64,000 bases of DNA, taken from assembly GCF_034424315.1 (NCBI RefSeq), contig NZ_CP139972.1, positions 1,178,001-1,242,000 of the forward strand, written 5' to 3'. The notes beneath the pieces were generated by a model. The model searched no databases. It saw only the letters and a program-made list of their open reading frames with translations, and was not told where the DNA came from. The position numbers were made by a program, and so were the translations under genes. How positions within the stretch are numbered: the first letter of the stretch is position 1; each line of letters starts with the position of its first letter. This document shows, piece after piece, positions 39,156 to 63,255 of the stretch. This stretch comes from Chitinophaga sancti. GTDB taxonomy: Bacteria; Bacteroidota; Bacteroidia; Chitinophagales; Chitinophagaceae.

Positions 39156-40866
39156 TTTTATTTGGTTTTATATTCTCTGACCATTTAGCCGCCGCGGCCT
39201 CCCAATCCATTATCGGCTGCCCACTGAGGGTCCAGCTGATCGCCTCATAGTGATAAAAAAACCGCCGGGCCTCCCGGGATGTTACTTCTCTTTGCGCAAA
39301 CCATTCCAGGACGGCCTCTATTGTTGGCTTTTCTTTTTTTGAAATGAATAAATCATTTCTTTTTGCGGGTGCCTGTTTACCCTCCGTTTTAAAGACTATT
39401 TGTTTGTTTAAATAATTGTGTCGCAATTCTGCGACTGTACCTGTATCAGTTTTAGTACCTGTATGGGTATCAGTTTTGAGATCTGTGCTTGTATCAGTTT
39501 TAGTACGTGTATGGGTATTAGTTTTGAGATCTGCGCTTGTATCAGTTTTAGTACGTGTATGGGTATCAGTTTTGAGATCTGTGCTTGTACCAGTTTTAGC
39601 ACGTGTATGAGTATCAGTTTTGAGATCTGTGCTTGTACCAGTTTTAGCACGTGTATGAGTATCAGTTTTGAGATCTGTTCTTGTATTAGTTTTAGTACGT
39701 GTATGGGTATCAGTTTTGAGATCTGTGCTTGTATCAGTTTTAGTACCTGTATGAGTGCCAGTTTTAGTACCTGTATGGATACCAGTTTCAATACCCGGAC
39801 GTATATCAGTTTCGGCACTGGCAGGCATTTCAATTCCAACACCTCTACGAATATTAATCCCAACATCTCTACGTATCTCACTTTCACCACCCACATCACT
39901 TCCAACGTCTCTATGAATATCGCCTCCGCGCCTATCAACACCAACAACTGCACGTATCACACGTTCACCATCCATATCACTTCCAACGTCTCTATGAATG
40001 TCGCCTCCGCGCCTATCAACACCAACAACTGCATGTATCACACGTTCACCATCCATATCACTTCCAACGTCTCTATGAATATCGCCTCCGCGCCTATCAG
40101 CACCAACATCTCTACGTATCACACGTTCACCACCCATATCACTTCCAAGGTCTCTATGAATATCACCTCTGCGCCCATCAGCACCAACAACTGCACGTAT
40201 CACACGTTCACCATCCATATCACTTCCAACGTCTCTATGAATGTTGCCTCTGCGCCTATCAACACCAACAACTGCACGTATCACACCTTCACCACCCATA
40301 TCACTTCCAACATCTCCGCCCATATCCACCACCGCCAATCCCCCCTTTCTCCCCGCCTCCTCCGCAACCCCCGCAATACTCACGGTGCAGGGAATATATG
40401 GACGGCCAGAAGGGTAATAAATAATATACCCACACTTATGCAACCATTTCAAACAATGCGTATACGTATTTGCAGATCCAATTTTACAAGACCTCATCAC
40501 CTGCTCGCGCTTGATCGGAAAACGATGCCGGAACCGATAAGCATTCCAGGTAATAAAAAGTGCCATGTACAAACTGATATGATTAGGCCGCAACCGGGAA
40601 TCATTCGCAACGCATTTCCAGAAGGAATTGAGGTGATGAATGTAATTGATATGCGCACCCTCATTCCCTAAATACGCATTACCCAGGCGCTGCACCTTGC
40701 CTGCCAACACCGCTCTCTCCCCCTGTTCCCCCAACACTGCTCTCTCCCCCTGTCCTCCCAACACCACTCTCTCCCCCTGTTCTCCCATCACCGCTCTCTC
40801 ACGCTGTTCTGCCAACATCGCTGTCTTCACATGATGTAATTCCTCAGAAGATAATGTTGTAATCAT
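39097..40866 (-). CDS. Winged-helix-like protein with two arrays of protein repeats, 589 aa
   Basis: Residues 20-55 contain a 9-residue repeat (GEQGERAVL). Residues about 85-170 are a winged-helix-like block shared with the short gene at 36.9 kb. Residues about 180-320 are 27-residue repeats (GERVIRAVVGVDRRGGDIHR..). Residues about 345-480 are 16-residue Thr/Lys/Asp repeats (DLKTDTHTRTKTDTST). The last 80 residues are non-repetitive. The first residues overlap the stop of the upstream RteC-like gene by 4 bp. The winged-helix part suggests replication initiation or regulation. The repeat arrays are probably a flexible linker of variable length. Function is not known. Confidence 0.75.
   Translation of the reverse strand: MITTLSSEELHHVKTAMLAEQRERAVMGEQGERVVLGGQGERAVLGEQGERAVLAGKVQRLGNAYLGNEGAHINYIHHLNSFWKCVANDSRLRPNHISLYMALFITWNAYRFRHRFPIKREQVMRSCKIGSANTYTHCLKWLHKCGYIIYYPSGRPYIPCTVSIAGVAEEAGRKGGLAVVDMGGDVGSDMGGEGVIRAVVGVDRRRGNIHRDVGSDMDGERVIRAVVGADGRRGDIHRDLGSDMGGERVIRRDVGADRRGGDIHRDVGSDMDGERVIHAVVGVDRRGGDIHRDVGSDMDGERVIRAVVGVDRRGGDIHRDVGSDVGGESEIRRDVGINIRRGVGIEMPASAETDIRPGIETGIHTGTKTGTHTGTKTDTSTDLKTDTHTRTKTNTRTDLKTDTHTRAKTGTSTDLKTDTHTRAKTGTSTDLKTDTHTRTKTDTSADLKTNTHTRTKTDTSTDLKTDTHTGTKTDTGTVAELRHNYLNKQIVFKTEGKQAPAKRNDLFISKKEKPTIEAVLEWFAQREVTSREARRFFYHYEAISWTLSGQPIMDWEAAAAKWSENIKPNKNGKSGKSHTNVTRSYSDPL
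39424..39790. repeat. 48-bp minisatellite inside the 589-aa gene
   Basis: About seven units encode DLKTDTHTRTKTDTST-like 16-residue blocks. Substitutions are few and spread between T, A, S, N and G codons. This is a candidate for slippage-driven length variation in whole units, which keeps the frame. Confidence 0.9.
39880..40320. repeat. 81-bp minisatellite inside the 589-aa gene
   Basis: Five to six units of 81 bp encode GERVIRAVVGVDRRGGDIHR plus VGSDMD. Neighbouring units are almost identical (for example around 39940-40070), which implies recent amplification or homogenisation. Confidence 0.9.
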
Positions 40867-45926: not shown

Positions 45927-46190
45927 GGGGTGTATAAATTTAAGCATTGATTGTTTTGAGAATTCGATGTAAGAGACAGGAGATTATTTTCCTTGAATCA
46001 TCCATCCAAAGCCTTTTATAAAAGCGTAATCGGGCATACAAATTTAAGCATTCATCGCCTTATAAATTCAAAGTACGCATAACAATAAACAGGAAATAAT
46101 TCCTTTGAAATATCCAGCCAAAGCCTTTTACAAAGGTTTAATCGGGCATACAAATTTAAGCATTCATCATTCTATAAATTCAAAATAACC
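45927..46190. repeat. Three direct repeats of 104-112 bp in a divergent promoter region
   Basis: Units centred on GGGCATACAAATTTAAGCAT start near 45927, 46031 and 46143. Between them CATCCATCCAAAGCCTTTTA-like sequence recurs (about 46000 and 46110). This fills the whole gap between the 92-aa gene and the 202-aa gene, and could carry LytTR sites or duplicated promoters. Confidence 0.8.
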
Positions 46191-46799
46191 ATGACAACAA
46201 AAAATAAAATATTCCCATTAAACCCTCCCAAAAAAACATCAAAAAAACCAAACAAAAGAACCATAAACCCTGAATTCACCACTGCCATCCGTGCGGCAAA
46301 ACTGATCCGGGTTTGCGCAGCATTCATGGCTCCTGACCGGCAGCGTTTTTACCGGCTTTCAAAATTCATTCTCCACCAGGTTATACATGCAGATACCTGT
46401 CACCCAATTGGTGAAAGACAGATTCTACATGAACACTTAAAAGTTTTTGAGAACTATGCATTCGATCCGGATCATCCATTGGAAAAATATCTGCCTGCCG
46501 ACATCATCACATCCGTAGATAACAAAATAAGCATCTCCATCCCCCAACCGGCAATCAATTGGCCCGCACAATCTTTATATTATAAGATTTTCCTCCTGGG
46601 TGTCAGCATAGATTTTCAGGCGTTCACTGCAAGCAGTGTGAGCCAAAGTACGGAGTGGCTTACGCAGGATACAGCGCCTATCCATCTGGAAATAGACAAT
46701 ACCTGTTCCCTGCTAATCGCTATAGGGATTGCATTTTCAAACAATAAGACTACGGTTGCCACCTGCAAGGCGGTAAAAATCATCTGCGTCAATACTTAA
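46191..46799 (+). CDS. Hypothetical protein, 202 aa, related in context to the 44-47 kb family
   Basis: A basic N-terminus (NKIFPLNPPKKTSKKPNKRT) precedes a helical part (RAAKLIRVCAAFMAPDRQRF) and a beta-rich C-terminus (ISISIPQPAINWP.., ..IHLEIDNTCSLLIAIGIAFS). This basic-helix-beta layout parallels the 190-aa and 182-aa proteins nearby, but sequence similarity is not obvious. The function is unknown. Transcription starts within the repeat region 45927-46190. Confidence 0.6.
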   Translation: MTTKNKIFPLNPPKKTSKKPNKRTINPEFTTAIRAAKLIRVCAAFMAPDRQRFYRLSKFILHQVIHADTCHPIGERQILHEHLKVFENYAFDPDHPLEKYLPADIITSVDNKISISIPQPAINWPAQSLYYKIFLLGVSIDFQAFTASSVSQSTEWLTQDTAPIHLEIDNTCSLLIAIGIAFSNNKTTVATCKAVKIICVNT

Positions 46800-46802
46800 T
46801 CA

Positions 46803-47060
46803 TTTTAGGCGAACTTCCCTCACCGTTTCATTCCCAGTCAAATTTGCCACCATCATTGGCTACTCCAATCGTACATCTCAGGCATACTCACCACCAACCA
46901 CTTCAACCACACTTCCCTCACCATCTCATTCCCTGGCAAATCCACCGCCACAATTTATCGCTCCAACCGTTCATCCTCCTGCATACTCACCACCACCAAT
47001 CACTCCAACCGCACTTCCCTCACCGTCTCATTCCCCGGCAAATCCACCGCCACAATGACC
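46803..47060. repeat. Three tandem copies of the 3' end of the 47.0-kb gene
   Basis: The plus-strand motif CTTCCCTCACCGTCTCATTC with following GGCAAATCCACCGCC recurs at about 46812, 46908 and 47008. The rightmost copy is the real gene end (minus strand ..VAVDLPGNETVREVRLE). The other two are decayed copies downstream of the stop. The period is about 96-100 bp. Confidence 0.85.
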
Positions 47061-47539
47061 ACTTTCCCACCCACCGGCAACATGCCCGCCTTATAATACC
47101 AATCCACACCATTGCGACCTAACACCGCCATCCCTCTTTCCTGTAACTCACCCGCCGCATCAAACACCTTTACCTGTACTTCCGCTACCCTGAACTCATC
47201 CTTCGCTGTTACCACCACCGTCGTATCCTCAAACACAATACCCTGCACCTCCGGCGACCTGTAAGCATCCTTTACCGCCATATTATACGCATTCTGCCCC
47301 GGACCCGCCTTTGACTTATAATAAGCCTTCAGCTCCGGATCTTCCAAAATCACCTTCGCATAAGCCGCGGCTACGCGCAACTTATACCTGGCTTCTAACT
47401 GTTTTTTTGACGGTTTATTTTTTGACGGACCACGCTTCTTCGCCATGATAATCTGCCCGTTCCTTTCGTAAATCGTAAGCTGACCGCCGAGGCTTCCCCG
47501 CACGAGTTGCAGCAAAATATTATCCTTCACAATAGCCAT
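47000..47539 (-). CDS. Unknown helical/Ig-like protein, distant paralogue, 179 aa
   Basis: Start chosen at MAIVKDNILLQLVRGSLGGQ, three codons inside the longest frame, in line with the 190-aa paralogue. Same plan: a basic segment (MAKKRGPSKNKPSKKQLEAR), a helical part ending GQNAYNMAVKDAYRSPEVQG against KDQSAYNLAVRDAF.APEIRN in the paralogue, and an Ig-like part ending LPGNETVREVRLE against LPANETVADVVL. The function is unknown. The gene is followed by two degenerate copies of its own tail. Confidence 0.7.
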   Translation of the reverse strand: MAIVKDNILLQLVRGSLGGQLTIYERNGQIIMAKKRGPSKNKPSKKQLEARYKLRVAAAYAKVILEDPELKAYYKSKAGPGQNAYNMAVKDAYRSPEVQGIVFEDTTVVVTAKDEFRVAEVQVKVFDAAGELQERGMAVLGRNGVDWYYKAGMLPVGGKVVIVAVDLPGNETVREVRLE

Positions 47540-47548
47540 AACAAACAA

Positions 47549-48003
47549 TTTTTGGGGTTATACTGCAAGGTAAAGATTTTCGCCTGGAATATTACCCGAC
47601 AACGACATTTAATAAGTACTAATTCATTACTTTATGCCTACCTCAATATCCAATTGATATAAAAGTACCCTTTACATATCCTTATGGCTATATGAAGGAT
47701 TAAAACAAAGCCCCTCTTTCAATAGGGAATTAGCACAGATGGAATCCTGGGCCACCCAATAGATCACACCACTCCATTGTTCGTATTTTTATCATAAATC
47801 TTTCATTAATCCCATGTCTGTGTTATAACATTTCTCTCCAACAATAAATACTTTTACCCTTAATTCCAGCCATAGACTGGGTTTTCCTTATACCATCAAC
47901 ATTGTCATGAATTTTAAAAACTACCTGTATTCGTAAACCATTGGTTCTCTGATGATATCCTATACCATCCCTGACCCGTTTCCATATTTATAGTAGCACT
48001 TAG
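47549..48003. other. Intergenic stretch with no recognised feature
   Basis: AT-rich DNA between divergent genes. I see no convincing open frame, RNA or repeat in it. Confidence 0.5.
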
Positions 48004-48680
48004 ATGAAACAAATTTTATTGTTCCTATCCCTGCTATGCACCGTTGCACAAAATGCAATTTCGCAGAGCCACCCACTTGCAAGGCACAGAATGTCCGGAA
48101 TAGGAACACCGCTATTATTGGTATTTTGAATGAAGAAGAGCAACAAAAAGTCGATGAATTAACCTGGCGGCTTGAAGTTCTAAGTAAAGTTGGAATAGCA
48201 TTAATCAAAATGGGAGATAGTCCTGATTATACATTTTCATTACTTCCAGATGAGAAAGTAAATGGGGAACTGGAATTACCAGCGGCAGACAATTTATTTA
48301 GAATCACAATGCATTTTATACCTGGGAATTTAGGTAATGCATTGCATGAATTGAAACATGGTTTTCAGGCATTAAAGGGAGATATAATTGGGGGCTTAGA
48401 AAATGAAAAAGTCACGACGAACTACTCAAAGAAATTTACAAGCCTGGCACAACTTAACCAGCCTGGTTACTTTAGGCAATATGCTTTTCCGGGTAAACTT
48501 GCACCAAATGTCGAACCCTTAAAAGAAGAACTTAATTATCTAAATAACCAGGTTCAAGGATTAACGGGAACTAACAATCAATTAAATTATGTTATTCAAA
48601 ACTCAGATCGACATCAAACTACTGTTGACTTAATAAAACGTATAACTCTGCCTAACGGTACACCTATTTATACCAAATGA
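48004..48680 (+). pseudogene. HELKH metallopeptidase-like toxin, signal peptide out of frame
   Basis: The frame from 48036 to 48680 (214 aa) contains GNALHELKHGFQALKGDIIG, a zinc-binding HExxH motif, and ..YFRQYAFPGKLAP, a combination I associate with metallopeptidase tips of Bacteroidota Rhs toxins. A signal peptide MKQILLLFLSLLCTVAQNAI begins at 48004 in another frame, so a frameshift near 48060-48110 separates export signal and enzyme part. No Rhs core is present. The end overlaps the next gene as ATGA. It is either a stranded toxin tip or a formerly secreted peptidase. The third zinc ligand cannot be fixed by eye. Confidence 0.6.
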
Positions 48681-49294
48681 CTATGAAAATCTTAATAATA
48701 TTTGCACTATTATTAGTGCTCACATCCTGCTCATCCAAAATAACGGATCGACGATTTGTTACAATAAAACCTTTGCGCGATTGGGAAGTTACGCTAACAT
48801 TCAATAAAGATTCATCCTTTATAATGAAAGATGATTTCTGTTGTAATGAATTTTATTATTGTGGGAAATGGCGATATGTAACAAACTCAAAAAACACAAT
48901 CGTTTTGTCTGATACAATTAAGGCTGTATTTGACGACTATCATGAAGCTTTCAAGGTATACAACCGAGATAAGCACTATTTCCAACTTTATCCTCCACAT
49001 TATTATTTTCCTATTATTTCCAATGATACAATAACTATCAAAAAGAATGGGAGGAAAATACTTTTTCGCGATTTAAAATTTGAAAGACAGACAATATTCG
49101 ATCGTAAAAATTTATCCAAAACAAGAGCTTTATTAATTGCACATGAACTCGTTTATACTTTAAAAATGCCTAATAAAGAATTCAAAAGTCGGTTTGGAAA
49201 AGGTAAAAGGCAAATGTTAAAGGCAAAAACTAAAGAATTAATGATTTGTCCCGATTTCATTTTCCCAATGAAGATGCACCGTAAAGGCTCTTAA
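48677..49294 (+). CDS. Lipoprotein, probable immunity partner of the HELKH protein, 205 aa
   Basis: The second ATG (48683) gives MKILIIFALLLVLTSCSSKI, a clean lipoprotein signal with lipobox LTSC. The first ATG (48677) overlaps the toxin stop as ATGA, which implies translational coupling. The mature part is beta-rich with paired Cys (FCCNEFYYCGKWRY) and is related to the broken lipoprotein at 8368-8898. An outer-membrane or periplasmic lipoprotein fits protection against an extracytoplasmic peptidase. This is inference from gene order. Confidence 0.65.
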   Translation: MTMKILIIFALLLVLTSCSSKITDRRFVTIKPLRDWEVTLTFNKDSSFIMKDDFCCNEFYYCGKWRYVTNSKNTIVLSDTIKAVFDDYHEAFKVYNRDKHYFQLYPPHYYFPIISNDTITIKKNGRKILFRDLKFERQTIFDRKNLSKTRALLIAHELVYTLKMPNKEFKSRFGKGKRQMLKAKTKELMICPDFIFPMKMHRKGS

Positions 49295-49344
49295 TAGAAC
49301 TGAGAAATTGCAAATCATGTAGCTGGTAAAATAAATGCCAGCTA

Positions 49345-49587
49345 CTTATGGGCTACTCAAAAAATTCTACCAGCCGGGCACATTTAGAGCAAGCCAACGA
49401 TATCAGACAACAGGCATATTTGGGTGAACTTCCACCAAATGCCAAACCAGTAAATGGAGAATTGATTTGCCTGACTAATGAAAATAGAAGGATATACTGG
49501 AACTAAGGATCAAATAAATTCTGTTATTCAAATCTTAGATCACCATCAAATTACTATTGACTTAATAAAACATATAACTAAGTTATA
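49345..49587 (+). pseudogene. Decayed second copy of the HELKH toxin tail
   Basis: In shifting frames the DNA gives NSTSRAHLEQANDIRQQAYL, GELPPNAKPVNGEL and then QINSVIQILDHHQITIDLIK. This parallels the intact tail at 48430-48660 (..TSLAQLNQPGYFRQYAFPGK, LAPNVEPLKEEL, QLNYVIQNSDRHQTTVDLIK). It is cut at 49587 by the IS3 insertion. A tail with no enzyme core implies that incomplete toxin cassettes have piled up here. Confidence 0.6.
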
Positions 49588-49600
49588 TACTCCCCATTTA

Positions 49601-50554
49601 TTAGACAGCAATAGGTGAATTATTAATTAAAGAATCAAATCTATTACTACTATTATAACCTTTTTCTTTTTTTGGTTCTTTTTTTCTTTTTGTTGATATC
49701 TGTGGATATGTGGATAACTTATCAGCTGCTCCATAAACTTCAGCAGGAGTCTTATATTCCAGGCCTTGATGTTTTCGTTCCCAGTTGTAGAATTCCACAT
49801 ACCTGTGAATTCCCTTGTATAAATCCAGTGTACTATCATAAGCATTGAGATAGATATTCTCATACTTGATGCTACGCCAAAATCTTTCGATTGCGATATT
49901 GTCAGTGGCTCGTCCTACTCCATCCATGCTTAGGCGAATTTCAGCACCTAATACAGCTGTTGTAAAGTCTTCACTGGTAAACTGGCTGCCCTGATCCGTA
50001 TTTAAGATCTCTGGTGCTCCATAAATAGAAACGGCCTTTTCAAGCGCTTCCAGACAAAATTCCACTGTCATAGTATTGCTGAGTGTCCAGGATAACAGAT
50101 AGCGGCTATTCCAGTCTATAATCGCACACAGGTACATAAAACCCTTCGGCATTGGAATATAAGTTATATCCATACTCCAAACCATATTATTCCGATCAAT
50201 TTTCAGGTTCCGAAGCAGGTAAGGATATGTTTTATGCCACTTACATGCCTCACTTGTATTAGGAGCGGGATATATGGCAGAAATATCCATCTTTCGCATC
50301 AATCGCCTTATGCGCTTCACATTAACCTGTACTTCTGGTGTACTCAAATGTTTTGCCATGCGCTCTGCTCCAAAATAAGGATGTTCCAAATGCAGACGGT
50401 CTATCTGCTCCATCAGCGCCAGGTTTTGTTTGCTTTCTCCTTTGGGCTCATGGTAATGGCTGCTACGAGATACTTCCAGCAATTGACACTGACGTACAAT
50501 ACTGAGCTCATTGTCCTCCTTATTTACTAAAGCCATCTTTCCAGTTCTTCCCAA
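49601..50554 (-). CDS. IS3-family transposase OrfB, DDE catalytic part
   Basis: The rve-type DDE integrase core has its first Asp in WSMDITYIP, its second Asp in LNTDQGSQFTS and its Glu in DNIAIERFWRSIKYE. HTH_21-like sequence (HLEHPYFGAERMAKHLS) precedes it. The open frame begins in the -1 frame relative to orfA and has only a TTG-type start at 50554, so it is most likely made as an OrfAB fusion by -1 frameshifting on the A9 run at 50568-50576. All catalytic residues are present. Confidence 0.9.
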   Translation of the reverse strand: MGRTGKMALVNKEDNELSIVRQCQLLEVSRSSHYHEPKGESKQNLALMEQIDRLHLEHPYFGAERMAKHLSTPEVQVNVKRIRRLMRKMDISAIYPAPNTSEACKWHKTYPYLLRNLKIDRNNMVWSMDITYIPMPKGFMYLCAIIDWNSRYLLSWTLSNTMTVEFCLEALEKAVSIYGAPEILNTDQGSQFTSEDFTTAVLGAEIRLSMDGVGRATDNIAIERFWRSIKYENIYLNAYDSTLDLYKGIHRYVEFYNWERKHQGLEYKTPAEVYGAADKLSTYPQISTKRKKEPKKEKGYNSSNRFDSLINNSPIAV

Positions 50555-50846
50555 ATGCCTGCTCAGATTTTTTTTTCAACCAGTCAACCTCTACCTTGAG
50601 CTGACCGATTTGCTTATATAGTTCGTCTTTTTCTTCCTGATGATCAGAGGCCGCTACGCCTGCTTTCTTACCCTGATCAAACACATCCTCTGAACCTGAT
50701 AGCAGTTGCTTCTTCCACTCCGTTATCTGAGTAGGATGTATATCATACTTTTCGGCCAGCTCTGCTAATGTCAGCTGTTCCTTTAAGGCTTCGATAGCTA
50801 CTTTCGCTTTAAACGCCGCATTGAACTTTCTTCTTCCCTTGTTCAT
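50520..50846 (-). CDS. IS3-family transposase OrfA, HTH part
   Basis: A 108-residue protein with an N-terminal HTH (FKAKVAIEALKEQLTLAELA..IHPTQITEWKKQLL) and a C-terminal leucine-zipper-like helix (YKQIGQLKVEVDWLKKK). It binds the IS ends. The AAAAAAAAA run at codons KKK is the likely slippery site for making OrfAB. Confidence 0.9.
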   Translation of the reverse strand: MNKGRRKFNAAFKAKVAIEALKEQLTLAELAEKYDIHPTQITEWKKQLLSGSEDVFDQGKKAGVAASDHQEEKDELYKQIGQLKVEVDWLKKKSEQAFGKNWKDGFSK

Positions 50847-50911
50847 ATTGTAAATTTAAGATGTTTTTCCACTTAAACTTACTGTCCGTTTTTCGGGGAG
50901 TATTATAAAGC

Positions 50912-51520
50912 TCACCAAGTATATCCAACGGGAATGCAAACCTTAGCCGCTGTATCATATTTACATTTAACGGACCTTTGTAAGTCATACTGAAAGTAGC
51001 CTTCTCTTAACCCAAAATATTGAATTGAATCACTACGCTGATTTAGTAAAAACAATTCATTATTATGAATCCCTATGCTAGTTGTTAAATCATCATTGTA
51101 ATTTACACCATTAAACACAACGCAAACACCATTCCCTACTTTCATTACGATATTCTCCATTAATCCACTCTTTCCTACAAGCGGATTCATTGACAATATA
51201 TAATACTTATTCCCATCATAGCGAAACCAACTCACTCCTTCCAAATCAAACAGCACTTTCCTAAAATTTCCACTTCTCGGGATATGTACTTTGCTATTTT
51301 TCACTTGAATAAAATCAAAATCAGGTTTTTTTGACAAGTAAATTTTTATGTCGTCTTGAGCTAAAATGTATAAATAATCATTCCCAATTTTCTTTATTTT
51401 ATAGTCAATGGAAGTACAATTAATTTGTTGGGAAATAATATCCTGTAGACCATTTTCCAAGCATTTGTAATTTCCTGATTGAGTAAGAAGAAAGCTTACC
51501 ACTATCATTACATACTTCAT
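50912..51520 (-). CDS. Hypothetical protein after a toxin tail, 202 aa (immunity-type)
   Basis: A short hydrophobic start (MKYVMIVVSFLLTQSG) may be a signal peptide. The rest is beta-rich with several Cys and Tyr, ending YDTAAKVCIPVGYTW. It begins 6 bp after a toxin-tail fragment on the same strand. The IS3 element inserted 5 bp downstream of its stop without damaging it. A periplasmic immunity role is inferred from position alone. Confidence 0.6.
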   Translation of the reverse strand: MKYVMIVVSFLLTQSGNYKCLENGLQDIISQQINCTSIDYKIKKIGNDYLYILAQDDIKIYLSKKPDFDFIQVKNSKVHIPRSGNFRKVLFDLEGVSWFRYDGNKYYILSMNPLVGKSGLMENIVMKVGNGVCVVFNGVNYNDDLTTSIGIHNNELFLLNQRSDSIQYFGLREGYFQYDLQRSVKCKYDTAAKVCIPVGYTW

Positions 51521-51526
51521 AACTTC

Positions 51527-51690
51527 TTATTTTTCCTTTTTGATATTCTTACTATTCTTTTCTTGTAACTGCTTAACACGGCGAGGATCTCTTGTGTCAT
51601 AGAAAATATGTGAACGTTTGCCAGCTCCATCACGTCTTAAGACTTTATCCTTCAGACTATTCTGGATAGGATAATGGATATTCAAAAACT
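51527..51690 (-). pseudogene. Orphan Rhs-type toxin tail
   Basis: The frame reads NIHYPIQNSLKDKVLRRDGA, GKRSHIFYDTRDPRRVKQLQ, EKNSKNIKKEK and a stop at 51527-51529. The Lys/Arg-rich end is typical of toxin C-termini. It lacks a start and core. Its upper end meets the XRE-like remnant on the other strand, which marks the junction. Confidence 0.5.
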
Positions 51691-51811
51691 AAATGCCCAG
51701 GATAAATCTGATGCCTTTAAACTACTCGATATGTTCCTCCGCGATGCTAAAGCTAGACATGCATATAAAACGCCCCCCCGGTCGACGACCGGGGGGGCGT
51801 TTTATCAGTAA
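51674..51811 (+). pseudogene. 3' remnant of a small XRE-type regulator, read into a terminator
   Basis: The 45-codon frame starts MDIQKLNAQDKSDAFKLLDM and goes on FLRDAKARHAYK. It resembles the C-terminus of short HTH regulators, which commonly end ..LRDAKARKAY. The last residues (TPPRSTTGGAFYQ) are the terminator palindrome read as protein. The HTH itself is absent. Confidence 0.35.
51765..51805. terminator. 41-nt perfect palindrome, bidirectional terminator
   Basis: ATAAAACGCCCCCCCGGTCG at 51765-51784 is the exact reverse complement of 51786-51805 with a single A at the centre. The GC-rich stem flanked by AAAA on one side and TTTT on the other gives a Rho-independent terminator in both directions. 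It separates the immunity genes ending at 51831 from the debris at 51.5-51.7 kb. Confidence 0.8.
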
Positions 51812-51830
51812 TTATTGATATAAAATCAAG

Positions 51831-52226
51831 TCAATCTAACATATTTAAATACTCCTTCTTTAATGCGATTAATAACGCAGACACCATATCATAAAAAGCC
51901 TGATGTATATCTAAACTACTCACAGTTTTTTCTGTATAATTTAATATCCTTTGAGCTAACATTTCTCCAAAACTTCTAATGACTGAAAGATCTAATTCAT
52001 ATTCATAGAGATCTTTCAGCTCTAAGCGAATTGTTAGTAATGGCCCATAGTCATCTTCATTTGCATATTTCAGAACAATTAATTCAAAAACATACTCTTT
52101 CCTACTGTCTCCTAAATGTTGCTCTTCTCTAAAAGAGACGCCATTTATTCCCGACAGGCTGCTTTGTAAAAAAACAGACATAGATTTAACCTCTTCTTCT
52201 ATTACCTTTACAATTCCCGAGTCCAT
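51831..52226 (-). CDS. Putative immunity protein of the second Rhs locus, 131 aa
   Basis: Acidic soluble protein (MDSGIVKVIEEEVKSMSVFL.., ending ALLIALKKEYLNMLD), without recognised domain. It starts 5 bp after the toxin domain of the second Rhs gene, the same spacing as the 123-aa immunity gene at 11.4 kb. It stays intact although the toxin gene has collapsed. Confidence 0.65.
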   Translation of the reverse strand: MDSGIVKVIEEEVKSMSVFLQSSLSGINGVSFREEQHLGDSRKEYVFELIVLKYANEDDYGPLLTIRLELKDLYEYELDLSVIRSFGEMLAQRILNYTEKTVSSLDIHQAFYDMVSALLIALKKEYLNMLD

Positions 52227-52231
52227 AAATA

Positions 52232-52603
52232 TTACTTTTTCTTTCCAGCAGAAGGGGCAGTTTGAATCTCTTCAACCCTTGCTTTTTTCAATATTTTAGC
52301 CAGTATATGTGCCTGACGCTTATTTGCTACAACATCAGGCCGGGATGCTGCCCATATTTTTAATGCCCTTTCACTTTTAGGTTTGATTCCAACATGCGAC
52401 CCTTCAACACTAAGTTCAAAACCAAGAGCTTTAAGTTTTTTCACGCTTAACTTTTGTACTTTACCACCACTGCCCATTGTTGCAGCAACAGGATCTTTAA
52501 ACGTTGACAGTCCCCCTTTAGAATCATAATAGTTATCGTCCTTACCTCGCCTTGGTGTAAAGTTTGCATCAGTAAAACCACCTCCCCTATGTATATATGA
52601 ATC
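52232..52603 (-). pseudogene. Toxin domain of the second Rhs gene, cut off by an in-frame stop
   Basis: This stretch stays open in exactly the frame of the Rhs core upstream and is separated from it only by TAA at 52604-52606. It encodes GGGFTDANFTPRRGKDDNYY, then KKLKALGFELSVEGSHVGIK, and ends ..EEIQTAPSAGKKK. The basic, helical domain is not one I can name. An internal ATG at 52477 would give an 81-aa piece on its own. As it stands the toxin cannot be attached to a delivery core. Confidence 0.65.
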
Positions 52604-54266
52604 TTATTCATTCTCATCTTTCTTAGTAGGTGATTGCCTTGGGTCAAATTGTCGCGTTGGATTAGCCTTTGGCTGTGGTACCGTGTTAGGATTAGCTTGT
52701 GATTCCGATACCGATGTTGCATCCGGATTCTTCAAAAAAGGAATCCTTGGCAATATAGGCATAGGTTCAAAAGATGTCCAATTAAATGGTAACTCTTGCC
52801 ATAAACCTATACGATCAATTTGCATATTACCAAGCGCCCGACCTAATCCGGCGCCTTCATATGTTCCACCTACTTTTGCCCCCGCATCAACACCTGTTTC
52901 AATCGCCTCGTTAACAGAAAACATTGGTGGCTCTATACCAAACATCGGTATTAATTCCTCAGCTCCATCTAAATCTACAGCCCAAATAGGTTTATTTCCT
53001 GCAAATTGATATGGTGTATACCATGGAAAACTATTCGTTAAAGGATCTACGCTTAGGAACCTCCCCAACCTCGGGTCATAAATCCTCATCCCATAATCCT
53101 GCCATCCCGTCTCCACATCATTCTCCTTCCCATTAAAACCATACCTATACCCCTTCGCTGTTATCCCATAACTCACCCCATTATCACTACCAGCATCCGC
53201 ATTGGCCTGATCTACCATCAACGTCGTAAACTCATCACTATCTCCACTCGCAAACCCATCTTCAAGACTAATGGTCGCTGCTGCCATATACGTCGCTGGC
53301 AGGTTATTCGTACGCTGAATCACAGTCGGTATTACCGGTATCGTATCCCCATTCCTGATAATGCTACCTGCTATATTCCTACCCGTGCCAATTTGACCAC
53401 CTCTACCCGGCATTAGCATACCAAAGGGATAATATTCCTGCGCATTGACTATAACTGCATTATAACGATCTACAGTCGTATTATTGAGAGATACACCCAG
53501 CTTCCTGTCAGACACAGTAGCCAGCACATTCCCCAGGTGGTTTGTCAATTCAAAGAACTTCTTTCCTCTTATAAAAGTAACATTTTTTCCTGCGCCCAGT
53601 CCGGTCATCCTTGTTCCGGTAGGAGTTGTCAGATCCTGTACATTGATTGCCAATGTGTTCATGTCTAAACGGCTACTGCGATACAGATTCGTTTCAATCT
53701 GACTGAGCTGTGCTTTATTGACAGAGGTATCATTATAAGTATAGACACTCCGGATATTGCCCCTTGCATCTCGCATATACCAGGTTTGGGTGGTATCGTT
53801 TGCCTTGCTGATCCGGTTACCGGTTACATCATAGGTATAGACGATTGCTGTACTGTCATCTTTGAAGATTGTGGATGTTTTGCAATAGACATTCCACCTG
53901 GTACTGTCAACACCTGCCCTGCGATCGGATACAATATTAGCTACACTGTCATACTTGTAGTTATCATATCCCTGGTTATCAATATCATTCCCATATCGGG
54001 CCCAGTTTACCGTATCCTTTACATAGGTCAGTTTATTGGTTCCCGGACGGTAATTGTAGATCATGGAGTCCATCACCAATGGAGAACCCGCAATAGAGTT
54101 ATTACTATTTCTTTTGTTTTTTAGAATATTGCCATTTCCATCGTAGCTAATATTCTCCTGGAAATCAGGTAGCGCGGTAAATGCATTCGTCCAGGCATTG
54201 GTCAGGTATCCAGACCTTTGTTAGCTGTCACGCCTTTGAGGCGATTGAGCACGTCGTAAGAATAAG
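52604..54266 (-). pseudogene. 5'-truncated Rhs core gene, relative of the 2903-aa gene
   Basis: The open part from 54079 encodes the C-terminal Rhs region: repeats (MDSMIYNYRPGTNKLTYVKD, YDVTGNRISKANDTTQTWYM) up to YGMRIYDPRLGRFLSVDP. It is about 80 percent like residues 2260-2650 of the 2903-aa protein. Homology continues upstream to about 54266 (EYTYSYDVLNRLKGVTANKG) but with a frameshift and stop near 54205. No signal peptide or N-terminal half is present. It ends with TAA 52604-52606, before its toxin domain. It probably arose as an Rhs tip copy that could recombine with the large gene. Confidence 0.8.
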
Positions 54267-54282
54267 TGTATTCTAATAGTTT

Positions 54283-54777
54283 ATGAAAACATCCATCTTA
54301 ATTTTATCATTCCTTTCGCTAAGCCTTGTGGCTGGTAGCCAATCGCAGCCGGAGAAATTAGTTCAAAAGGTTTTAAAGGAGAATATCCCGCGAAGAAATC
54401 TTGAATTCAATATGAAAGACAAGCAACAAACAGAATATTCAATCAAGTACCTTGGCAGCGTTACCGTAAAAAATGGGAATACGTATAAGATAGTCAATTA
54501 TCAAACTTATTCTAAGCCTGTTGGCCTCATGCAGCATGGGAACTGCATTCTCCTGATTTATACAGACAAGAACAAGTTTGCAGGGGCTTACTTTGTCGGT
54601 GATTATTTATCCTTACCAGACTACCTGGATAATAAGGAGCTTGTGTTCGTAGGAAAGTTCAAATGTAAGGAAATGACGAGGGTCAGTCTTGCAAACGGTC
54701 TGCCGCAACAGATCTACAAAAAATGCACAAAGAAACTAGGAGACATGTTTGAGTATTCCACCATGTACCCGTTTTAG
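54283..54777 (+). CDS. Secreted hypothetical protein, 164 aa
   Basis: Signal peptide MKTSILILSFLSLSLVAGSQ, then a mixed alpha/beta protein (KYLGSVTVKNGNTYKIVNYQ, ..GNCILLIYTDKNKFAGAYFV). No family is recognised. The first codons directly adjoin the broken end of the Rhs gene on the other strand, so the gene could have lost part of its promoter. It may be another immunity-type or stress protein. Confidence 0.6.
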   Translation: MKTSILILSFLSLSLVAGSQSQPEKLVQKVLKENIPRRNLEFNMKDKQQTEYSIKYLGSVTVKNGNTYKIVNYQTYSKPVGLMQHGNCILLIYTDKNKFAGAYFVGDYLSLPDYLDNKELVFVGKFKCKEMTRVSLANGLPQQIYKKCTKKLGDMFEYSTMYPF

Positions 54778-55165
54778 TATCGGAAAACACCGGCTGTCAA
54801 AATATATGGCAGCCGCGGTTATTCCATTAACATCGGTAATTCAAAGTTGTTGTATACATTCACATGGAGCAGCACCTCGGTTTGACATCTTGCCTCATAA
54901 CCTGAAAATGCTTAGTTTACCTTTCTTCCATAATTGTCGTTTACATTATAACTACGCTGAACGGTTACACCATAAAAATAGAAAACATCCCCAGGTGTAT
55001 AACATCTAAATCTCCCTCCCCCCTTCGTTGCCAACCAGAACTTATTCCATACATAAAATTCCGGGAACTGCCTCACCCAAGCCTACAAATAAAATGAAAC
55101 TATAGGAATTCCCATTTAATCGAATCTGACCAAATAGACTTAATTTTGCCTTCCAAATAAACTAT
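54778..55165. other. Upstream region of the sigma-54 response regulator
   Basis: The stretch contains no supported gene. A -7 like TAGACTTAATTTTGCC precedes ATG 55166 by 20-35 bp. TAATTTTG at about 55140 fits the Bacteroidota TAnnTTTG element well. Confidence 0.5.
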
Positions 55166-56503
55166 ATGGCAGGAACTGTGCTCATAATCGACGACGAAGA
55201 AAAGTTACGCAGCCTGATGAAGCGCATCATCACCCTCGAAGGTTACAACGTCCTTGAAGCCGGTAATATCAAATCCGCGCAAAAGATCCTCGATAAAGAA
55301 GATATCGATGTCGTACTCTGCGATGTCAAACTCCCCGACGGCAGCGGGGTAGATTATTCCAAAACCATCAAGGAGAAATTTCCTTCCCTGGAAGTCATCG
55401 TTCTCACCGCCTACGGCAATATTCCCGATGGCGTGCAGGCCATCAAAAACGGGGCTTTCCATTACCTCACCAAGGGCGACGATAATAACCAGATCATCCC
55501 TTTGCTGAACCGTGCCTACGAAAAAGTACTGCTGCAAAAGCGGATCGAAAAACTCGAAAAACAGGTAGGACAGAAATACAGTTTTGAAAGCATCCTGGGC
55601 AATTCCCGCGCGATCTCTGAGGCCATTGCCCAGGCCAGCAAAGTAGCCCCCGCCGATACCACCGTACTGTTATTAGGAGAAACAGGTACCGGCAAGGAAG
55701 TTTTTGCCCAGTCCATTCATAACAGCAGCAAGCGCGCAGGCAAGCCTTTCGTAGCACTGAACTGTAGCGCGTTCAGCCGGGAGCTACTGGAAAGTGAACT
55801 ATTCGGTTACAAAGCCGGTGCCTTCACCAATGCAACACGGGATAAAAAAGGCCTGATCGAAGAAGCGAATAACGGTACCATTTTCTTAGATGAACTGGGT
55901 GAAATGCCCCTGGACCTCCAGGCGAAATTATTGCGTGTCTTAGAGACCGGCGAGTTTATTAAAGTAGGTGATACCAAACCCACCAAAGTGAACGTACGCA
56001 TCATCGCCGCAACCAACCGTGACCTGAAAGCAGAAGTGGAGAAAGGTTTATTCAGGGAAGACCTGTATTACAGGCTGAATGTATTCGCCATCACCCTGCC
56101 ACCCCTGCGGGAACGCAAAAAAGATATCCCGGCACTGGCAGAGTATTTTATCGCACTGGCCGCAAACCGCAATAACAGGAAAGCCCTGAAAATGACGACG
56201 GCGTTTGTAGAGAAACTGCAACTGCATGAATGGAAAGGGAATATCCGGGAATTGAAGAACGTGCTGGAACGCGCCGTGATACTCGCTGACGGTGATGAGC
56301 TATTGGTAGAACACCTGCCATTTGATTTGCAGATTGCAGATAAATCATCAGGGATATTGTCCGCATTTGATCTCGCCAGCGTGGAGAAATTACATATTAT
56401 AAAGGTGCTGCATCATACTAAAAACAATAAAACAGAAGCAGCGAAATTATTGAATATAGGGCTTGCGACATTGTACCGGAAAATAGAAGAGTATAAAATA
56501 TAG
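55166..56503 (+). CDS. Sigma-54-dependent response regulator (NtrC family), 445 aa
   Basis: Receiver domain 1-120 with acidic pocket D9-D10 and phosphoacceptor D53 (VVLCDVKLPDGSG). AAA+ domain from about 140: Walker A GETGTGKE near 171, the sigma-54 loop as GAFTNA (usual GAFTGA) near 219, and Walker B GTIFLDELGEM. A Fis-type HTH covers about 421-445 (NKTEAAKLLNIGLATLYRKI). It lies directly upstream of the kdp genes and of a candidate sigma-54 promoter, while no KdpE-type regulator is visible in the window. It therefore likely activates kdp when phosphorylated, perhaps by the KdpD-type kinase at the right edge. The GAFTNA variant replaces a Gly that is normally conserved. Confidence 0.93.
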   Translation: MAGTVLIIDDEEKLRSLMKRIITLEGYNVLEAGNIKSAQKILDKEDIDVVLCDVKLPDGSGVDYSKTIKEKFPSLEVIVLTAYGNIPDGVQAIKNGAFHYLTKGDDNNQIIPLLNRAYEKVLLQKRIEKLEKQVGQKYSFESILGNSRAISEAIAQASKVAPADTTVLLLGETGTGKEVFAQSIHNSSKRAGKPFVALNCSAFSRELLESELFGYKAGAFTNATRDKKGLIEEANNGTIFLDELGEMPLDLQAKLLRVLETGEFIKVGDTKPTKVNVRIIAATNRDLKAEVEKGLFREDLYYRLNVFAITLPPLRERKKDIPALAEYFIALAANRNNRKALKMTTAFVEKLQLHEWKGNIRELKNVLERAVILADGDELLVEHLPFDLQIADKSSGILSAFDLASVEKLHIIKVLHHTKNNKTEAAKLLNIGLATLYRKIEEYKI

Positions 56504-57180
56504 GGGCCTTTCGGAATGAAGTAGCGACATTATTGATTATAGACCTCGCAATACGATACCGGAAAATAGAAGAGTATATAATATAGGGGCCTTTGGGAAT
56601 GAAGCAGCGACTTATTGATTATAGACCTCGCAATACGATACCGGAAAATAGAAGAGTATATAATATAGGGGCCTTTCGGAATGAAGCAGCGACATTATTG
56701 AATATAGACCTCGCAATACGATACCGGAAAATAAAAGAGTATATAATATAAGGTTCCTTCAGAAGGATAAAACTGAAGCAGCGAAATTATTTAATACCTG
56801 CCTCGCCACACGCTATAGGCAAATAGAAGAATACAGAATACAAGGTTCCTTCAGAATAATAAAACTGAAGCGGAACATTATTAAATATATGCCCCCGCAA
56901 TACGCTACCGAAAAACAGGAAAATATAAAGTCGCGCCACAGTAATAAAACTGAAGCCGGAACATCATTTAATACCTGCCCCGCAATACCCAACCGAAAAA
57001 TAGAAGAACATAAAGTCGCTTCGCAACAATAAAACTGAAACCTGGACATCATCAAATACATGCCCCGCCACCCCCCTACCGACAAATAAAAAACTATAAA
57101 ATATAAGGCCCCCTCACAACGATAAACCCCAAGCCACAAAACCATTAACCCCCGCCCTCCCAACCCGCTACCACCCACCC
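56504..57180 (+). repeat. About eight decayed tandem copies of the regulator's HTH-coding end
   Basis: Units of 82-93 bp repeat the last 75 bp of the regulator gene plus a spacer. They start near 56517, 56600, 56682, 56774, 56866, 56951, 57035 and 57128. The first three copies keep CAATACGATACCGGAAAATA and GGGGCCTTT. The fourth still reads as protein, DKTEAAKLFNTCLATRYRQI. Later copies lose similarity step by step and drift to C-rich sequence. Nothing else is encoded here. The array fills the gap between the regulator and the kdp promoter. Confidence 0.92.
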
Positions 57181-57280
57181 CCTTCAAAATGATAAAACCC
57201 TCTCAAAATGAGAAGGTCTTATTTCCACCCCATTTTCCCATTCACCTGAAAACCAACCACTTCCCCCCTTCCCCGCCCTC

Positions 57281-57325: not shown

Positions 57326-57676
57326 ATGAACCAATATGAAGCCGCTGCTGAAATAGCAGATGAAATACCCTCCATTCAAAAAGAAATAGTCAAAGCACCT
57401 GTATTCGGCTCTGCCTATCTCTGCATCAAAGTATTGGCGAACTACACTCTGAAAATGATCCAGGACCACCAGATCCGTGAAGTACAACACTCCATGCGCC
57501 TGGCCGAAAAGATCTACAACAAAGGCAACCAGCTCGTAAAAACAGCCATCGAAAATGTATTCATCTACAGTTTCAGTGCCATGAAAATGGTATGCTCCCG
57601 CCAGGAATGGCAGGAAATACAAAGCAAAATGCCGGTCAACATCTTTTCTATCTACATCCAACAACTACACGCTTAA
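57326..57676 (+). CDS. Hypothetical protein at the head of the kdp operon, 116 aa
   Basis: Helical soluble protein (MNQYEAAAEIADEIPSIQKE.., ending NIFSIYIQQLHA) without recognised motif. It is the first gene behind the candidate sigma-54 promoter, and only 4 bp separate it from the next microprotein, so it is part of the kdp transcript. A regulatory or assembly role for the pump is possible. No function can be read from the sequence. Confidence 0.7.
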   Translation: MNQYEAAAEIADEIPSIQKEIVKAPVFGSAYLCIKVLANYTLKMIQDHQIREVQHSMRLAEKIYNKGNQLVKTAIENVFIYSFSAMKMVCSRQEWQEIQSKMPVNIFSIYIQQLHA

Positions 57677-57859: not shown

Positions 57860-59539
57860 ATGAACAGCGAAATCACAGGTGTCTTAGTCACCTTCTTCAT
57901 TACCTTACTGATTGCTTTCCCCCTCGGAAAGTACATCGCCAAAGTATTCGCCGGCACACCTACCTTTACCGACTTCCTGCATCCCTTTGAACGATTCCTC
58001 TACCGCATCTGCGGCATCGATCCCAATAAGGAAATGAACTGGAAACAACACATGGTGGCCTTACTGACCATCAACATGGTCTGGGTCCTTTACGCCTTCT
58101 TCGTCCTCCTGTTCCAGTCACACCTTCCCCTCAACCCGGACGGTAACGGGAACATGACGCCGGACCTGGCTTTCAATACCAGTATCAGTTTCCTCGTAAA
58201 CTGTAACCTGCAACACTACTCCGGCGAATCCGGACTCACCTACCTCACCCAGCTGCTGGTGATCACTTTCTTACAATTCGTATCCGCAGCAACAGGTGTG
58301 GCAGCAGTAGCGGTGCTTTTTAAGGCGTTTGCGGGCAAAACGACTGAAAAGCTAGGTAACTTCTTCGTTTTCTTTATTAAGACGATTACGCGCCTCTTAT
58401 TGCCCCTGTCTGTGATCATGGCGATCATCCTGGCCTTTAGTGGTACCCCCGCCTCCTTCGATGGCAAGGATACCATTACCACCCTGCAGGGCGATACCGT
58501 ACAGGTATCCCGTGGCCCCGCAGCGGCCATGATCGCCATCAAACACCTGGGTACAAACGGTGGCGGCTGGTTCGGGGCTAACTCCACCCACCCGCTGGAA
58601 AATCCCTCCTACTTTACCAATATGCTCGAAGCCATTGCTCAATGTATCCTTCCAATGGCACTGGTCTTTGCCTTCGGCTTCTTCATCAACCGTAAAAAAC
58701 TGGGCTATGCCATCTTCGGTGTCATGACCATCGGGATGCTCACTTTGATGATCCCGAATATGCTGTCCGAACTCGGCGGCAACCCCGTACTTGCAAAGAT
58801 CGGTTTGCATGATCACAGCGCGATGGAAGGAAAAGAAGTACGTATAGGTGTAGCCGCTTCGGCGTACTGGCAGGTGATGACGACCATCATCTCTACCGGT
58901 TCGGTGAACTCCATGCACGATAGTGCTATGCCGCTCTCCGGTGCCATGCAATTACTCGGTATGATGGTGAACTGCTTCTATGGTGGTAAAGGTGTCGGCC
59001 TGCTGAACTACTTTATCTTCCTCATCATCGCCGTGTTTATATCCGGCCTGATGGTGGGCCGTACGCCGGAGTTCATGGGGCGCAAAGTAGAGGCGAAAGA
59101 AATGAAGATCGCCGCCATTATCGCGCTGTTCCATCCCTTCCTGATATTGGTAGGTACGGCCATTGCAGCTTACCATCCGGACGCCGCCTGGCTCAATAAT
59201 CCCGGTCACCACGGGTTTTCAGAGATGCTGTATGAATATACGTCCTCCTCTGCAAACAATGGTTCCGGTTTCGAGGGACTGGCTGATAACAACATCTTCT
59301 GGAATATCAGCACAGGCCTGGTGATGCTCTTAGGCAGGTTCCTGCCCATCATTGGCCCGGTAGCAATCGCGGGTATCCTGGCGAATAAAAAGTATACGCC
59401 GGAATCTGCAGGTACGCTGCAAACGGACAACGCTACTTTTGGTATCATGACCTATGCCGTCATTATGATCGTAGCTGCACTGGCCTTCTTCCCGGCTTTG
59501 ACACTGGGACCTGTGGCCGAATTCTTTCAAATCTACTAA
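57860..59539 (+). CDS. kdpA: KdpA, potassium-binding and translocating subunit, 559 aa
   Basis: Ten or so transmembrane helices of the superfamily of K+ transporters, with the four selectivity-filter regions, for example SFLVNCNLQHYSGE and KHLGTNGGGWFGANSTHPLE. The length is usual for the family. KdpA takes up K+ from the periplasm and passes it on to KdpB. It is encoded in an uninterrupted kdpFABC order with 12 bp to kdpB. Confidence 0.97.
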   Translation: MNSEITGVLVTFFITLLIAFPLGKYIAKVFAGTPTFTDFLHPFERFLYRICGIDPNKEMNWKQHMVALLTINMVWVLYAFFVLLFQSHLPLNPDGNGNMTPDLAFNTSISFLVNCNLQHYSGESGLTYLTQLLVITFLQFVSAATGVAAVAVLFKAFAGKTTEKLGNFFVFFIKTITRLLLPLSVIMAIILAFSGTPASFDGKDTITTLQGDTVQVSRGPAAAMIAIKHLGTNGGGWFGANSTHPLENPSYFTNMLEAIAQCILPMALVFAFGFFINRKKLGYAIFGVMTIGMLTLMIPNMLSELGGNPVLAKIGLHDHSAMEGKEVRIGVAASAYWQVMTTIISTGSVNSMHDSAMPLSGAMQLLGMMVNCFYGGKGVGLLNYFIFLIIAVFISGLMVGRTPEFMGRKVEAKEMKIAAIIALFHPFLILVGTAIAAYHPDAAWLNNPGHHGFSEMLYEYTSSSANNGSGFEGLADNNIFWNISTGLVMLLGRFLPIIGPVAIAGILANKKYTPESAGTLQTDNATFGIMTYAVIMIVAALAFFPALTLGPVAEFFQIY

Positions 59540-62174: not shown

Positions 62175-62711
62175 ATGGAACACGAGCGAGTAATAGTGAG
62201 TCATGCTGAGGAACAATATGCTGGCGTGATGGGTGATGAGAGGGAGGCTGCTGCGAAGGCGGGAGGCATGGGGAAAATGGAACATGAGCGAATAATCGTG
62301 AGTCTTGCTGAGGAACAACATGCTACTGTGGTTAAGGATGAGAGGGAGGCTGCTGCGAAAGTGAGGGGAATGGGAAAAATAGGAGATGAGCGAATAATTG
62401 TGAGTCTTGCAGATGTACAACATGCTGCTGTGGTTAGGGATGAGAGAGAGACTGCTGCGAAAGTGAAGGGTACGGGGATTGGGAAAACGGAACACGAGCG
62501 AGTAATAGTGAGTCATGCTGATGTACAATATCCTGCTGTGGTTAGGGGTGAGAGGGAGACTGCTGCGAAAGTGAACGGAATAGGGATTAGGAAATTAGAA
62601 CACGAGCGAATCATCGTTAGAAAAGCGTGTCCTGCTGACATACAATATGCTGCGGTGATCAGGGATGAGATGGAGGCTTCTGCGAAAGCGAGAGGTACGG
62701 GGATTGGGAAA
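62175..62711 (+). repeat. Five tandem 102-117 bp repeats of a gene head
   Basis: Units at 62175-62276, 62277-62378, 62379-62486, 62487-62594 and 62595-62711. The last is the native-looking one. Units 1-4 share a deletion of a few codons (RKACPAD is reduced to one or two residues), so they go back to one derived copy. All units remain in one frame. Confidence 0.92.
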
Positions 62712-63188
62712 AGACCTATATCCGCGATCATAGACAAGATCAGGCAGGGAAAGGCGGTGATTGCATTAACAGCGGAAAAGGTGTGGGTAGGATTTTCATA
62801 TGTGGAGATCTGGGGGCATGGTGAGTATGTGTCAAATTCAGGCTTGATCGTAAACCCTGTATTCAGGAATATGGGGGTGGCGTCTAGGATTAAGAAAAGG
62901 ATCTTCCGGTTGTCGAGGGAATTGTACCCGGCGGCGAAGGTGTTTAGTATTACGAGTGGACTGGCGATTATGAAGATGAATACGAAGCTGGGTTTTGAGC
63001 CGGTGACATTTAGTGAGATTACGCGGGATGAGGGATTCTGGGCAGGGTGTAAAGCTTGTGTGAATTATGATATTTTAGAGAAGAAAGCGTTTAAGCAATG
63101 TATATGTACGGCGATGTTGTATTCGCCGGAGGAACATGGAGTGCGGCAGGTGGGTGTGCATTTGCAGAAAAGTGAAGTGTTAATGTAA
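62175..63188 (+). CDS. GNAT acetyltransferase with five tandem copies of its own N-terminus, 337 aa
   Basis: From about residue 141 on the protein is a normal GNAT of the kind often seen near arginine genes in Bacteroidota: DEMEASAKARGTGIGKRPIS, GKAVIALTAEKVWVGFSYVE, acetyl-CoA loop RNMGVASRIKKRIF, FEPVTFSEITRDEGFWAGCK, and C-terminal Cys (CKACVNYD, CICTAML). Before it stand four more copies of the first 34-36 residues (MEHERVIVSHAEEQYAGVMG.., and so on), so the reading frame is extended by 140 residues. The native start probably corresponds to codon LEHERIIVRKACPADIQ at 62595, which has no ATG now. The substrate is not known. It is 8 bp behind kdpC, an unusual place for this family. Confidence 0.85.
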   Translation: MEHERVIVSHAEEQYAGVMGDEREAAAKAGGMGKMEHERIIVSLAEEQHATVVKDEREAAAKVRGMGKIGDERIIVSLADVQHAAVVRDERETAAKVKGTGIGKTEHERVIVSHADVQYPAVVRGERETAAKVNGIGIRKLEHERIIVRKACPADIQYAAVIRDEMEASAKARGTGIGKRPISAIIDKIRQGKAVIALTAEKVWVGFSYVEIWGHGEYVSNSGLIVNPVFRNMGVASRIKKRIFRLSRELYPAAKVFSITSGLAIMKMNTKLGFEPVTFSEITRDEGFWAGCKACVNYDILEKKAFKQCICTAMLYSPEEHGVRQVGVHLQKSEVLM

Positions 63189-63255
63189 AGGATATGTGCC
63201 AGGAATTTAAGGCAGGTGTGCATTTGGAGAAAAGTGAGGTATTAACGTAAAGCCG
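63135..63255 (+). repeat. Duplicated 3' end of the GNAT gene
   Basis: GTGTGCATTTGCAGAAAAGT (63155 on) with AAGTGTTAATGTAAAG is repeated about 57 bp later as GTGTGCATTTGGAGAAAAGT with GAGGTATTAACGTAAAG. The second copy lies after the stop codon at 63186-63188. Confidence 0.85.

Follow-up and report, generated by a model that had tools for sequence, protein, structure and literature searches.

Bacterial minisatellites, or VNTR loci, arise by slipped-strand tandem duplication, and the MIRU elements of Mycobacterium are one dispersed sequence family of intergenic tandem units that touch gene ends. The array described here, found in a stretch of 64,000 nucleotides of the Chitinophaga sancti chromosome (the whole of which is hereafter called the window), is a minisatellite or tandem array by definition, being made of head-to-tail units within the range of ten to several hundred base pairs. 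Like minisatellite and VNTR loci, it is built head to tail from local sequence, in units that measure between tens and a few hundred base pairs; what sets the arrays reported here apart is that many of them start within gene tails and that they appear to cluster in a single zone of the chromosome. With MIRU it shares intergenic tandem units at gene ends but not the presence of copies elsewhere in the genome: a 168-base query from the array gave three matches in its own genome, all inside the array, which argues against a dispersed repeat of the MIRU type. Borg repeats, which are carried by archaeal extrachromosomal elements, are reported to be fast-evolving, locally derived, independently formed and generally perfect, many of them being read into proteins (PMC9879509). 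Local derivation, independent formation, rapid evolution and protein read-through are common to both, whereas here the repeats lie in a bacterial chromosome near a dif-like site and their copies are decayed (PMC9879509). Fork fusion in E. coli raises the local recombination of a 266-bp tandem repeat, which makes a short tandem repeat locally unstable where forks meet (PMC12809603), much as proposed below. In that laboratory work, however, a reporter repeat was deleted, and the present case is a natural record of gains. The mechanism of the array is known in kind, and the part that merits attention is the apparent concentration of such arrays near dif in two species. Among titles and the beginnings of abstracts, a search that left most subscription journals outside, no description of gene-tail or terminus-proximal tandem arrays was found.

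The genome of the window (8.42 Mb in one contig; G000) carries the array immediately 3' of a response regulator gene, as follows, with unit borders set by eye.

55166..56503, forward strand: gene of the NtrC-type response regulator (receiver, sigma-54 activator and Fis-type HTH; Pfam Response_reg, Sigma54_activat and HTH_8), the tail of which is duplicated
56421..56503, forward strand: gene-tail unit u0, with the TAG stop at its end
56427..56433, forward strand: ATAAAAC in the gene tail, the putative left microhomology of the first duplication, from comparison with relatives
56504..56586, forward strand: copy u1, 72% identical to the gene and 96-98% to u2 and u3
56587..56668, forward strand: copy u2, 73% to the gene
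56669..56760, forward strand: copy u3, 73% to the gene
56761..56844, forward strand: copy u4, with an HTH-like peptide, 75% to the gene
56845..56931, forward strand: copy u5, 75% to the gene
56932..57014, forward strand: copy u6, 71% to the gene
57015..57107, forward strand: copy u7, 69% to the gene
57108..57189, forward strand: copy u8, the most decayed and C-rich (52% C), 51-53% to the gene
57190..57222, forward strand: eroded copy of the regulator's intrinsic terminator, now 3' of the array, with ATAAAAC at 57192-57198, from alignment with relatives
57326-57676: DUF7674 gene (Pfam), next 3' of the regulator
57860-59539: kdpA (Pfam), 3' of the DUF7674 gene

The preliminary description of this DNA stated that the gene tail recurs eight times at steps of 82-93 bp, and this was confirmed: the last 83 bp of the regulator gene are followed by eight decayed copies that span 56504-57189, the tail aligned locally with the spacer at a score of 81, whereas none of ten shuffles scored above 28, and TRF reported three overlapping rows for the array (scores 520, 277 and 279). 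The HTH-like peptide that it had placed in the fourth unit is also present, in frame 1. Its view that decay grows with distance from the gene holds for the last copy but not for most of the array, because identity to the gene from u1 to u8 is 0.72, 0.73, 0.73, 0.75, 0.75, 0.71, 0.69 and 0.53, that is, lowest in u8 and flat (0.71-0.75) from u1 to u6. No forward-strand ORF of at least 60 aa with a start codon inside the array occurs in the ORF list, and there is one reverse-strand ORF of 124 aa at 56813-57187.

All of the nine related loci compared lack the array, with zero copies at each and tail-to-downstream scores of 17-21 (81 in the window). Five of them keep the order of regulator, short spacer, terminator-like hairpin and DUF7674-like gene, with scores of 18-21: C. 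silvisoli (L034; regulator identity 96%), [Flexibacter] sp. ATCC 35208 (L035; 93%), a second single-contig genome studied below (G014, L005; 93%), G013 (L008; 83%) and C. tropicalis (L037; 84%). The other four (L006, L007, L036 and L038) have different neighbours and likewise no array. The alignment of the window with C. silvisoli continues to 56503/9338 and restarts at 57183/9344. C. silvisoli has the word ATAAAAC once in the tail of the gene and once in the leader of the terminator, with 91 bp from one to the other (101 bp in L035), and in the window the word occurs at 56427, 56767, 56859, 56944, 57029 and 57192. The joins u3/u4, u4/u5, u5/u6 and u6/u7 each consist of leader-like sequence, ATAAAAC and gene-tail sequence. 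The joins among the gene, u1, u2 and u3 lack the word, so it can be traced through the older copies only, and in this one array; a short later deletion would account for its absence there.

These comparisons suggest how the array may have formed. The regulator's stop codon would at the start have lain just 5' of the intrinsic terminator, as it does in the relatives, and the approximately 91 bp between the ATAAAAC of the gene tail and that of the terminator leader would then have been duplicated in tandem, as the joins indicate; the two words of C. silvisoli likely mark this first duplication, for which slippage of a strand or a switch of template in the course of replication is the most likely mechanism. 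As the upstream copy retains the reading frame, the gene remains intact. Since u1-u3 are 96-98% alike and only 72-73% like the gene, the recent growth of the array started from copies and not from the gene; u5, too, is a closer match to u1-u3 (79-85%) than the gene is. Wherever the gene and C. silvisoli differ, u1-u3 mostly have the gene's state (7 to 1), whereas u4-u8 are mixed (gene to C. silvisoli states 5:4, 4:5, 3:4, 3:5 and 3:4), and the older copies may therefore predate part of the gene's own change. The newer copies thus derive from copies and have drifted with no detectable coding constraint, and the terminator, now 0.7 kb away, is eroded, with a predicted fold of -8.7 kcal/mol against -16.9 for the relatives' stretch. 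Of the three readings put forward earlier for the array, the by-product of slippage is the one that these data support, and we consider it probable that the array is neutral duplication debris, generated by microhomology-seeded slippage in a terminus-proximal instability zone and surviving mainly 3' of genes, where the damage would be smallest.

Raw differences from the gene by codon position were [7,3,12] in u4, [4,8,11] in u5, [5,8,13] in u6 and [7,7,10] in u7, and their peak at third positions is the part that stood of the earlier remark that not all changes are random. When only sites at which the gene and C. silvisoli agree were considered, so that the gene's own change drops out, the counts became [0,7,0] in u1, [0,5,1] in u2, [1,5,0] in u3, [6,3,5] in u4, [3,8,4] in u5, [4,8,6] in u6, [6,7,2] in u7 and [13,7,7] in u8, and the codon-position bias was not significant in u4-u8 (p 0.24, 0.25, 0.28, 0.63 and 0.18, respectively). 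The changes in u1-u3 fall mostly at second positions, with zero cells, and p is given for u4-u8 only. Coding constraint of the kind expected from a selected HTH cassette was thus looked for by codon position and not found. The last 28 residues of the regulator are the same as in C. silvisoli despite 13 DNA differences, distributed over codon positions as [1,0,12]. Judged by these positions, the end of the regulator gene has been kept under constraint while the copies drifted.

A role of the array as enhancer or as spacing DNA, serving the sigma-54 regulator in front of the kdp genes, would agree with its location between the regulator and these genes and with an HTH-type regulator, and had been suggested in the preliminary description, but five relatives with the same gene order do without it, many other genes of the zone have similar arrays that each resemble their own gene's tail, and the copies are free of coding constraint; we regard this function as very unlikely. 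A reservoir from which the regulator's DNA-binding helix would be rewritten by gene conversion, also proposed there, finds some agreement in the HTH-like translation of unit 4 but is contradicted by the unchanged final residues and by the third-position location of 12 of the 13 DNA differences, and is highly improbable. Neither proposal is supported, since coding constraint is absent from the copies and the HTH of the regulator has not changed. Tandem arrays are prone to misassembly and the relatives examined have none at this place, which could point to an artefact; nevertheless, the copies differ from one another by up to approximately 43%, the genome is in a single contig, and arrays of the same kind are present in G014 and in C. 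silvisoli, making a wrong assembly scarcely credible. The reported array is most likely functionless, as far as can be judged from its sequence. The C-richness of u8 was also considered as a general signature of strand-biased decay and was ruled out by the GC skews of spacers with tail copies, which ranged from -0.38 to +0.65 in G000 (22 spacers, mean 0.06) and from -0.39 to +0.51 in G014 (26 spacers, mean 0.04); skews of both signs indicate that the C-richness is local.

The frequency of such duplications was surveyed at all predicted gene ends next to a spacer of at least 40 bp: the spacer was compared with the 200 bp of the gene that adjoin it, the last for tails and the first for heads, at a similarity cut-off of 36. 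Genes were called with a home-made hexamer caller, the weak or short calls of which may be wrong. In shuffled controls (best of five per end), which cover the first two sets of stretches and precede the later-added ones, all 1692 ends and all 438 ends remained below 36, with maxima of 32 and 29, respectively. The G000 sample comprised the window and 100 stretches, approximately 2.0 Mb in total, in one continuous run between 0.60 and 1.64 Mb and at scattered places in the rest, with N stretches skipped; that of G014 comprised 40 stretches (0.8 Mb), most of them near dif or the block syntenic with G000. A dif-like pattern matched once with at most one mismatch in seven of eight Chitinophaga genomes, and in the eighth its match had two mismatches; in G000 it lies at 868,815. 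Third-position GC skew, from which the origin was placed, changes sign roughly opposite dif: the G000 samples have negative values at 4.0-5.0 Mb and positive ones at 5.0-6.5 Mb, with noise elsewhere. The dnaA gene, at 4.316 Mb, is approximately 0.6 Mb from this noisy turn at about 4.9-5.0 Mb, and so the origin may not be beside dnaA.

With zone limits of -500 to +700 kb from the dif-like site, picked post hoc after the first genome had been seen, downstream copies were found for 32/527 tails in the zone of G000 against 1/528 elsewhere, and for 22/443 against 0/438 when only stronger gene calls (score of at least 30) were counted. The corresponding figures for G014 were 27/298 in the zone and 1/106 outside, or 25/250 and 1/89 with stronger calls. 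Heads were less affected, with 6/534 against 1/547 in G000 and 3/316 against 0/122 in G014, and this excess of tails in the zone fits selection acting after a blind process. The aligned stretch ended at most 2 nt from the gene end in 15 of 18 strong-call tail matches of one listing. Noncoding TRF arrays followed the same distribution: G000 has 69 of them in the approximately 1000 kb of zone and 12 in approximately 1030 kb of other sequence, and the counts for G014 are 42 (580 kb of zone) and 4 (220 kb outside). Several zone arrays hold more than two copies, and the periods of 65 ungapped noncoding arrays from the zones of both genomes were spread 22/22/21 modulo 3, with no preference for multiples of three. 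By permutation, the relation of tail matches to dif distance gave p of at most 5e-5 in G000, whether by tails or by samples; in G014, p was 0.009-0.014 by tails and 0.10-0.15, not significant, by 20-kb samples. The gene-tail arrays appear, in the sampled sequence of these two Chitinophaga genomes, to be concentrated around the dif-like site within limits set post hoc, clearly so in G000 and in G014 by tails but not by samples.

The zone is patchy and lopsided. Its strongest block in G000 (1.21-1.48 Mb) lies 0.34-0.6 Mb from dif and not on it, the stretch 1.098-1.178 Mb has 0/32 tails with copies, the 120 kb sampled in G014 on the right-hand side of dif, up to 300 kb away, has 0/52, and lone array tails occur 1.9 Mb (G000) and 3.7 Mb (G014) from dif. 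The intergenic fraction did not differ significantly between the zone and the rest; downstream spacers had a median of 180 bp in the zone against 139 bp outside in G000 (p 6e-5), and of 170 against 139 bp in G014, where the difference was not significant (p 0.53). Elsewhere in the genus, the kdp loci had tail copies in 2/12 tails plus one head in C. silvisoli, 0/8 tails in ATCC 35208, 1/9 tails (score 39) plus one head in YR627, and 0/5 each in C. tropicalis and C. filiformis, and among strong gene calls of L034, L036, L037 and L038, 1/23 tails had copies. Seven 3-kb dif loci (L218-L224) gave 0/12 tails, a very small sample. Among 75 kdp loci not named Chitinophaga, copies adjoined 1/581 tails and 2/624 heads. 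In 350 kb of E. coli K-12, none were found at 195 tails and 225 heads, the tails being divided into 0/120 in four stretches near what we take to be the place of dif and 0/75 in three others.

The segments 1.21-1.44 Mb of G000 and 5.54-5.78 Mb of G014 are the same block, inverted. Among 169 ortholog tail pairs, 151 had no array, 12 had one only in G014, 5 only in G000 and 1 in both, which suggests that the arrays of the two genomes are mostly separate events, at different genes. Events of the type proposed for the regulator have affected many genes around the dif-like site, as the counts in both genomes show, and as the genes affected are many and mostly different in the two species, short tandem duplication seems to be more frequent in the zone. 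The cause, we infer, would be replication termination, with fork fusion and late-replication repair acting over approximately 1 Mb. Tails probably outnumber heads because head duplications are selected against: a tandem duplication from tail to spacer would spare the gene, while one of the head would separate or repeat the start signals. We put forward, tentatively and as a possibility short of being probable, that in Chitinophaga chromosomes termination keeps making short tandem duplications in the approximately 1 Mb around dif, the tails being left as decaying fossils and the heads sometimes captured in frame as new protein repeats, of which the acetyltransferase-like gene described below would be an example. 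An alternative that we think rather unlikely is that the zone is an intrinsic trait of conserved chromosome blocks, through DNA structure, nucleoid proteins or gene content, and lies near dif by chance. The hottest G000 block (1.21-1.48 Mb, 20/165 tails) does indeed have a syntenic counterpart in G014 that is also hot (5.54-5.79 Mb, 14/136). However, the G000 sequence within 350 kb of dif on either side is also enriched (11/315, against 2/581 in the rest), as is the segment 5.79-5.99 Mb beside dif in G014 (12/83), and the block itself has changed sides relative to dif in G014, where its orientation is reversed, yet it is still at most 0.45 Mb away.

If the zone around dif is confirmed, it would offer a natural sequence record of where forks meet and of how frequent the resulting short duplications are, readable by genome comparison, and would be the counterpart in evolution of laboratory studies of termination-induced instability. 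It would also explain the repeat-rich spacers in one part of the chromosome and provide a route from gene-end slippage to new protein repeats. A search of G000 for the Tus family gave no match. A head-on bias of the genes with arrays, with fork direction inferred from dif, was considered and rejected, there being 9/213 co-directional against 13/230 head-on tails in G000 and 11/127 against 14/123 in G014.

Three further features of the window appear to result from duplications of gene ends.

62175..63188, forward strand: acetyltransferase-like gene that follows kdpC; its head has four additional in-frame units (102, 102, 108 and 108 bp)
63189..63250, forward strand: spacer with a copy (63215-63250) of the last 36 bp of gene 62175-63188 (score 52, period 62)
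46796..46999, reverse strand: spacer with tail copies of the reverse-strand gene 47000-47539 (score 92, period 102)

The acetyltransferase-like gene opens with five in-frame repeats of a unit of 34-36 residues. Its C. silvisoli ortholog, the protein of which matches GNAT PF00583, has one head unit, and where that ortholog has its start ATG the window has TTA; the extended protein of the window gave no Pfam match. Head duplications may here have been captured as a new N-terminal protein repeat, in what would be a second case, within the window, of the process that made the array. The stretch 63189-63250 is unmatched in C. silvisoli (L034). The C. silvisoli ortholog of gene 47000-47539 likewise has a tail copy, and one L034 stretch matches the window at both 46796-46855 and 46911-46951.

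Other elements were observed in and around the window. Just 5' of the regulator, at 47731-55131, lies a stretch of approximately 7.4 kb that is without a counterpart there in C. silvisoli. A reverse transcriptase domain (RVT_1, E 1.6e-29) is encoded by the ORF at 9589-10575, far from the array. On the reverse strand, at 11403-20114, a 2903-aa ORF matches Ntox30 (Bacterial toxin 30) at its C-terminal end and, weakly, the RHS repeat, and is one of several very large ORFs within the genome stretch 1.098-1.216 Mb, where gene-tail copies were looked for and none were found. A 589-aa ORF at 39097-40866, also on the reverse strand and with no Pfam match, holds three different repeat arrays with periods of 48, 81 and 27 bp, all multiples of three. 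Finally, a two-copy array of 112 bp lies at 45989-46215, beside a predicted gene starting at 46191.
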